From: Flavobacteriales bacterium
GTDB taxonomy: Bacteria; Bacteroidota; Bacteroidia; Flavobacteriales_D; Crocinitomicaceae
Length of the DNA: 64,000 bases
Assembly: GCA_018883325.1 (NCBI GenBank)
Contig: VEQH01000007.1
Location: 1-64,000, forward strand
Direction of reading: 5' to 3'
The position numbers were made by a program, and so were the translations under genes. The notes under the pieces are model-generated. The model saw nothing but the letters and a program-made list of their open reading frames with translations, was not told the DNA's origin and did no database searches. The stretch's first letter is position 1. Each line of letters opens with the position of its first letter. Positions 39,881 to 40,456 of this stretch are shown here, in pieces.

Positions 39881-40456
39881 ATGTTAAGTCTGGCGATTAT
39901 TGAGCAAAAATTGGTTGAAATTCGGAATAAAAGAGTATTGATTGACAGAGACGTTGCTGAATTATATGGTATTGAAACGAAGCGTGTGAATGAAGCTGTA
40001 AAAAATAATCCAGAGAAATTCCCAACTGGTTATGTAATTTATTTGGATGAAGAAGAAACTGAATTTCTAAGGTCGAAATTTTCGACCTTAGAAACGAGAA
40101 ATGAACCGGTCGAAATTTTCGACCGGTTCCAAAAACTTAAACATTCAACTGTTCGTCCAAAGGCTTTCACTGATAAAGGTTTGTATATGCTGGCAACTAT
40201 TTTGAAGAGTCCAAAGGCGACAGAAACTACAATTGCTATCATCGAAACGTATTCTAAATTGAAGCAGTTTTCTAATGCCATTAATTCATTGTATGTTCAT
40301 AATTCTGAAAGCTCGAAACAAGATATAATTGAGAAAGGAACTGAATTAATAGCTGAAATAATACAAGACGATTTGAAACTTGATGAAACTGAAACTTCAA
40401 TTGAGTTTAATTTCGCACTTGTTAAGTTAAAACATACAGTGAAACGAAAAAAGTAA
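39881..40456 (+). CDS. ORF6N-domain DNA-binding protein
   Basis: 191 residues. The ORF6N domain covers about 1-110, with IEQKLVEIRNKRVLIDRDVAEL (partly at 7-25), YGIETKRVNEAVKNNPEKFP and the later PKAFTDKGLYMLATILKSPKAT. The C-terminal 60 residues are helical and may dimerise. ORF6N/KilA-N proteins are often found in phages and mobile elements and bind DNA. No phage gene is nearby, so this is probably a chromosomal solo regulator. The gene contains two long palindromes sharing a 17-base core (separate entry). It lies between alaS on the other strand and a methyltransferase on the same strand. Confidence 0.82.
   Translation: MLSLAIIEQKLVEIRNKRVLIDRDVAELYGIETKRVNEAVKNNPEKFPTGYVIYLDEEETEFLRSKFSTLETRNEPVEIFDRFQKLKHSTVRPKAFTDKGLYMLATILKSPKATETTIAIIETYSKLKQFSNAINSLYVHNSESSKQDIIEKGTELIAEIIQDDLKLDETETSIEFNFALVKLKHTVKRKK
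40064..40129. repeat. Two palindromes with a common 17-bp core inside the ORF6N gene
   Basis: Arms of 15 bases at 40064-40078 and 40080-40094, and of 13 bases at 40103-40115 and 40117-40129, each flank a single central T. Both contain the core ggtcgaaattttcgacc, at 40071-40087 and 40108-40124, with centres 37 bases apart. The two copies are read in different frames and encode different peptides, so the selection or copying is at DNA or RNA level. Confidence 0.85.

Follow-up and report, generated by a model that had tools for sequence, protein, structure and literature searches.

A palindrome within ORF6N genes co-varies with the predicted recognition helix that they encode and is probably the protein's own intragenic operator

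A 64,000-nt stretch from a Flavobacteriales bacterium (contig VEQH01000007.1 of assembly GCA_018883325.1; the whole stretch is hereafter the window) contains a gene of the ORF6N family in whose coding sequence two perfect palindromes are embedded (Table 1). The Pfam profile PF10543 matched this gene with 95.1 bits (curated cut-off 27.8; E 3.2e-27), which bears out the ORF6N assignment of an earlier note that was made from the sequence alone. The palindromes have in common the exact 17-bp core GGTCGAAATTTTCGACC, their centres are 37 bp apart, and together they span residues 62-83 of the open reading frame (ORF) in two reading frames. The coordinates, arms, single-base centres, spacing and core given in the earlier note were all exact, and so was its statement that the two copies encode different peptides. 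When matches to the core with up to three mismatches were counted, 0 of 100 shuffled windows reached the number of the real window, so that chance is excluded for the core copies. That note had also asked whether the core is unique or dispersed; within two mismatches, one more place was found in the genome, which is the same site in a paralogous ORF6N gene. The translations of the neighbours, read by eye, indicated that the ORF6N gene is preceded, on the other strand, by an alanyl-tRNA-synthetase-like ORF and is followed by one that resembles an O-methyltransferase. The start codons are predicted ones, and the window gene is L090 in the upstream-site set and L001 in the Rfam set used below.

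Table 1. Coordinates of the features of the window gene (± positions are counted from the palindrome centre).
Feature	Position	Strand	Remarks
ORF6N gene, GLYMLAT ("K-type") subfamily, 191 aa	39881..40456	+	PF10543 profile, 95.1 bits; ORF list
Predicted recognition-helix codons, residues 33-42 (TKRVNEAVKN)	39977..40006	+	AlphaFold2 helix H33-42 after H22-29
Codons K34 and R35 (domain residues 28, 29)	39980..39985	+	associated with ±7 and ±5/±4
Codon E38 (domain residue 32)	39992..39994	+	associated with ±4 (Glu with G-C)
Codon N42 (domain residue 36)	40004..40006	+	associated with ±3 (Asn with A-T)
Palindrome 1, arms 15, centre T at 40079, half-site TCTAAGGTCGAAA	40064..40094		phase 0, codes FLRSKFSTLE
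Palindrome 2, arms 13, centre T at 40116, half-site GAACCGGTCGAAA	40103..40129		phase 1, codes NEPVEIFDRFQ

The pair had been taken for a peculiarity of one gene, but the palindrome is a family trait: a palindrome of 27 bp, with arms of 13 bases around a single A or T, is present at the same place in nearly all the main-subfamily ORF6N genes examined. Almost all of 80 relatives collected from genome contigs carried it in perfect or near-perfect form, with differing flanks and in two frames. Since one of the six search peptides used to collect them overlaps the palindrome, the conservation test was redone on genes found with the Pfam profile only (188 genes of the two main subfamilies). A mean of 11.15 of the 12 arm pairs from ±2 to ±13 was matched in these genes, versus 7.5 for synonymous-codon permutations, which were searched for palindromes by the same procedure as the real genes. 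The palindrome was located at position 59-61 of the hidden Markov model in nearly all genes and across several phyla, and it was kept in genomes of 66-71% GC (L340, L346, L356). Of 395 genomes sampled from the taxonomic class to which the window belongs, 162 carried an ORF6N gene; in the phage collection the relatives were few and unannotated. Scans of viral contigs with the bare 17-mer yielded mostly terminator-like intergenic palindromes and chance coding matches; all but a few near ORF6N genes were set aside, and no locus obtained in this way entered the statistics. In the divergent YLWTE group (5 genes) only imperfect inverted repeats were observed. Two other divergent genes, L388 and L389, have inverted arms of about 10 bp (one mismatch in L389) around an asymmetric 7-base centre, in L388 as TTTGAGATCA CTGGGAA TGATCTCAAA, and this asymmetric centre is outside what the simple model explains.

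Comparison with homologues, which the earlier note had proposed for residues 62-83, revealed that the window protein is about 13 residues longer than the homologues with a single palindrome; one palindrome is the family norm, and the window gene has two because of these extra residues. Palindrome 1 has decayed in L004, in L006 and in the first copy of L007, but palindrome 2 is perfect in all three; in L005 palindrome 2 is near-perfect. At this same locus in the relative L007 (2001-2813), a truncated first ORF6N copy with palindrome 2 stands immediately before a second, complete one that has palindrome 1.

What is conserved at this place is the DNA and not the peptide. The phase-0 site typically codes for LRS[QK]x[AVSL]TS, while phase-1 sites code for peptides such as ELVENFDRF, EVVENFDHL and ELVTNCDRF. 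The earlier note had held that homologues keeping the peptides and losing the palindromes would speak against its proposal, and the opposite was observed: the peptides change and the palindrome stays. Furthermore, the choice of the Leu-Arg codons in one arm sets the residue encoded on the far side, which is Ser with TTG AGG (49/50), Leu with TTA AGG (14/15) or CTA AGG (13/13), and Ala or Thr with TTG CGG. The symmetry ends abruptly at ±13 in phase-1 genes and declines gradually in phase 0. In phase 1, the strong signal of T.G at ±9 (24/50) came from a single peptide class (ELV...DRF) and does not hold generally. These genes are a clean case in which selection at the DNA level dictates an amino-acid sequence across phyla, and the resulting co-varying residues would be misread as structural coupling in an analysis of the protein only.

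We then computed the mutual information between domain residues and palindrome bases over 289 genes (the set of 80 relatives plus the Pfam-only set), numbering the residues so that 28, 29, 32 and 36 of the domain correspond to K34, R35, E38 and N42 of the window protein. Residue 36 ranked first for base pair ±3, with Asn accompanied by A-T in 89/89 sites and Arg by C-G in 187/188. Residues 32 and 29 were associated with ±4 and ±5; for residue 32 and ±4 the combinations were Gln with A (114/116), Glu with G (112/113) and Arg with C (24/24). Lys at residue 28 was accompanied by G at ±7 in 185/185. When residues 29, 32 and 36 were read together against the triplet ±5/±4/±3, RER went with CGC (57/58), REN with CGA (52/52), [VAIT]QR with CAC (84/84), EQN with CAA (21/21), DKN with GGA (9/9), [QYA]RR with GCC (15/15) and NKR with TCC (4/4). 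Both palindromes of the window gene carry CGA, and its protein has R35, E38 and N42. From residues 32 and 36 alone, the triplet was predicted correctly in 252 of 257 genes (baseline 34%), and still in 230 of 234 when the training was restricted to genes of the other reading frame, which is a strong argument against coupling between protein residues as the cause of the code. Asn-A, Gln-A and Arg-G are classical major-groove contacts, and the natural residue/base switches agree with all three. In addition, residues 84-85 in the predicted wing were associated with the flank bases ±8 and ±10 (at residue 84, Arg with G at ±10 in 152/152 and Lys with A in 41/46); this part of the code is weaker because the wing codons and the flank are close neighbours in the gene, and it may explain why the flanks are symmetrical yet variable. 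A change of recognition residue is accompanied by a change in both palindrome arms, so that each gene would reveal the apparent target of its own protein. From the code, the substitution E38Q would be expected to move the preference of the window protein from GGTCGAAA to GGTCAAAA, and N42R to GGTCGCAA.

Some of these genes share ancestry, and therefore the raw counts overstate their independence; the guarded figure is that of a tree test. The tree was built with FastTree on 109 columns after removal of the contact and palindrome columns. Residue 32 changed at least 89 times on it, and among the supported independent Glu/Gln pairs the base followed the residue in 16-17 and did the opposite in 0 (p ~3e-5). 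L316 encodes an otherwise K-type protein, yet it has Arg at residue 36 and C-G at ±3. In the AlphaFold2 model, helices 22-29 and 33-42 form a helix-turn-helix-like pair at high predicted local distance difference test (pLDDT) scores, and all four reading positions lie inside helix 33-42.

Related palindromes also occur in non-coding DNA. In the 250 bp before the start codon, 34 of 202 ORF6N genes carried such palindromes (47 sites versus 5.2 expected), with a peak 53-72 bp before the ATG. They are not simple copies of the in-gene site, because the flank identity between upstream and in-gene site of one gene was 3.8 of 7 positions versus 3.5 for random pairs. In L122 (helix residues S, L and R) the triplet TGC is found both upstream and in the gene, and in L474 (Ala at residue 36) the same unusual GCA/GCT halves are present at both places. 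Arrays of sites are present at L117, L404, L332 and L306; at L117 (1055-1425) a truncated ORF6N gene is followed by palindromes of different half-site types exactly 34 bp apart (centres 1309, 1343, 1377 and 1411) and then by an intact ORF6N gene. At L295 (12599-12630) a 31-bp perfect ORF6N-type palindrome, followed by a Bacteroidetes-like promoter, lies upstream of an ORF of 198 aa and then an ORF6N gene; since the palindrome stands before both adjacent genes, the regulated unit may include this partner gene. In the 4.06-Mb genome of the window's bacterium, every exact consensus site lies within an ORF6N gene, so an external regulon found no backing in this exact search, which weaker sites would escape. 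The nine ORF6N matches of this genome (L084-L092) differ from each other in all readable in-gene half-sites, which suggests that the paralogues have distinct specificities.

We consider it likely that the palindromes are binding sites of the ORF6N protein that the gene itself encodes, and that they serve as intragenic operators for autoregulation by roadblock or looping. Of the three options in the earlier note, the internal autoregulatory operator is the one that was strongly supported, by the helix/base code, by the non-coding copies in promoter regions and by the confinement of exact consensus sites to ORF6N genes. At codons 62-83, with their helix/base code, the window palindromes have the place and the features of a candidate regulator site inside a transcribed coding region. 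We strongly infer, from the co-variation only, that the window protein physically binds them; its dimerisation and a putative autorepression by roadblock or looping are what we infer beyond the features that the sequence itself displays, namely the palindrome, its conservation in two frames, the code and the non-coding copies upstream. A protein dimer would read two 13-bp half-sites as double-stranded DNA, with the recognition helix (K34, R35, E38, N42) reading bases ±7 to ±3 on the inner side; the outer flank would be read by a flexible wing, part of whose codons belong to the palindrome region. Bound about 200-240 bp past the start codon, the dimer would be a roadblock to RNA polymerase, as PurR is on purB; in genes that have an upstream operator close to the promoter, the two sites, about 245-296 bp apart, would be compatible with looping. 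Because such an operator lies in the coding sequence, the gene would carry its own feedback element wherever it is moved, regulator and operator would be kept together through transfer and diversification, and helix and operator would diversify together.

Several results weigh against this interpretation. The Asn/Arg switch at residue 36 changed only 4 times on the tree. Residues 68-85 of the AlphaFold2 model, which are partly encoded by the palindromes, are of low confidence, as are the wing and the C-terminus, and a sequence search of the PDB and a fold search gave no solved relative or usable fold match. At the threshold used, about 83% of the 202 genes, the window gene included, showed no upstream site, and thus looping cannot be general. 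Finally, the upstream half-sites matched the in-gene triplet of their own gene modestly (30/74, permutation p 0.04), and for this reason some of them may serve paralogues.

The palindromes could also be cognate sites with another role, for example in the replication, recombination, partition or self-cleavage of a mobile gene, which we regard as improbable. The helix/base code reveals recognition and not its outcome, ORF6N genes occur in several copies, often in tandem, with a patchy distribution, and some longer members have an extra, possibly enzymatic, C-terminal region. Nevertheless, the non-coding copies cluster where operators lie, and the 191-aa window protein is without the long extension. 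In the longer proteins (P0001, encoded by L084; residues 140-292) this region of about 150 aa has an HDRFIIID motif and, judged by eye, is similar to phospholipase-D-like proteins; no Pfam family matched it.

It is very unlikely that the palindromes act as mRNA hairpins that attenuate or otherwise regulate expression of their own gene, the second option of the earlier note. The predicted fold of the window-gene mRNA does contain two strong hairpins (-42.9 kcal/mol, z -7.7). However, pairing in the arms was not of the G-U-tolerant kind, with 32 G.T against 51 A.C mismatches; complementarity was retained at ±1 and ±2, where the RNA loop would be; and the pairs ±3 to ±5 track the DNA-reading residues of the recognition helix. 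No Rfam match was obtained in 11 ORF6N loci, window gene included, and a structured mRNA element is disfavoured.

The third option, that a small mobile palindromic element left this footprint when it was domesticated as part of a gene, was not supported and seems to us extremely unlikely. The two copies and the extra residues of the window gene would fit it, but genome-wide pattern searches found none of the dispersed copies in unrelated places that mark an element of the Rickettsia palindromic element or PARCEL kind, all exact consensus sites of the window's genome being in ORF6N genes; moreover, almost every homologue, whatever its phylum, has a palindrome at this site, and its sequence varies along with the protein. 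Replication errors can make a palindrome perfect, but it is hardly credible that protein constraints, or template-switch repair of imperfect palindromes, produced this one without any function when synonymous shuffles lose the palindrome, two frames with different peptides keep it, and nearly every gene has it at the same position with the helix/base code.

The sister family Bro-N (PF02498) suggests the same principle: 11 of 30 genes had at least 10 of 12 arm pairs matched versus 2% of synonymous shuffles. These internal palindromes lie about 180-280 bp into the ORF and are often centred on AAwTT (L480-L485, L492-L494, L504). Matches to the Rha profile in this phylum, tried as a control, were set aside; they look like ORF6N genes again, and their places overlap ORF6N matches. 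Whether self-targeting is general to Bro-network domains (ORF6N and at least part of Bro-N), with the operator of each protein embedded in the coding sequence of its DNA-binding domain, we judge to be evenly balanced. If it is, the operator would move along with its gene and remain matched as specificities diverge, every member would be a self-labelled protein/DNA pair, and a recognition code could be read from genomes alone. The ORF6N palindromes give a large and almost unstudied family a candidate DNA target, along with hundreds of natural candidate protein/operator pairs. A predictive code and sets of orthogonal repressors might follow, and operators of orphan regulators might be found by looking inside the regulators' own genes.

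Bro-N, KilA-N, ORF6N and Phage_pRha are listed together as Bro-network DNA-binding domains in PMC10111431, where ORF6N is used merely as a Pfam name. ORF6N is a member of this network, in which Bro-N genes also have internal palindromes, and no report of an intragenic cognate site for Bro-network domains was found in the open literature. Rickettsia palindromic elements are palindromes in open reading frames that are repeated or mobile. PARCEL are palindromic coding repeats (PMC2996958). ORF6N palindromes resemble both in their location inside open reading frames, but both of these are repeated or mobile and the ORF6N palindrome is limited to one site in one gene family. RGG motifs are encoded by RNA G-quadruplexes (PMC11789052). 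There, too, a coding stretch doubles as the target of the encoded protein, whereas the ORF6N target would be a palindrome of specific sequence that is conserved as DNA. The operators lac O2 in lacZ and gal OI in galE are internal operators that loop with an upstream operator; a possible upstream partner was observed for 34 of 202 ORF6N genes, with none detected for the window gene. Unlike the ORF6N site, lac O2 and gal OI are not in the regulator's own gene and are not known to be family-wide. In Escherichia coli, the intragenic PurR operator of purB is a transcriptional roadblock (He and Zalkin 1992, as cited in PMC4132739, which also lists LacI, CcpA and CodY). As in purB, a regulator site would lie in a transcribed gene downstream of the promoter, where the bound protein can stop RNA polymerase. 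However, purB is an enzyme gene whose operator is read by a separate regulator, whereas the ORF6N site lies in the sequence that codes for the DNA-binding domain of the regulator itself, is conserved in two frames and across phyla, and co-varies with the recognition helix.
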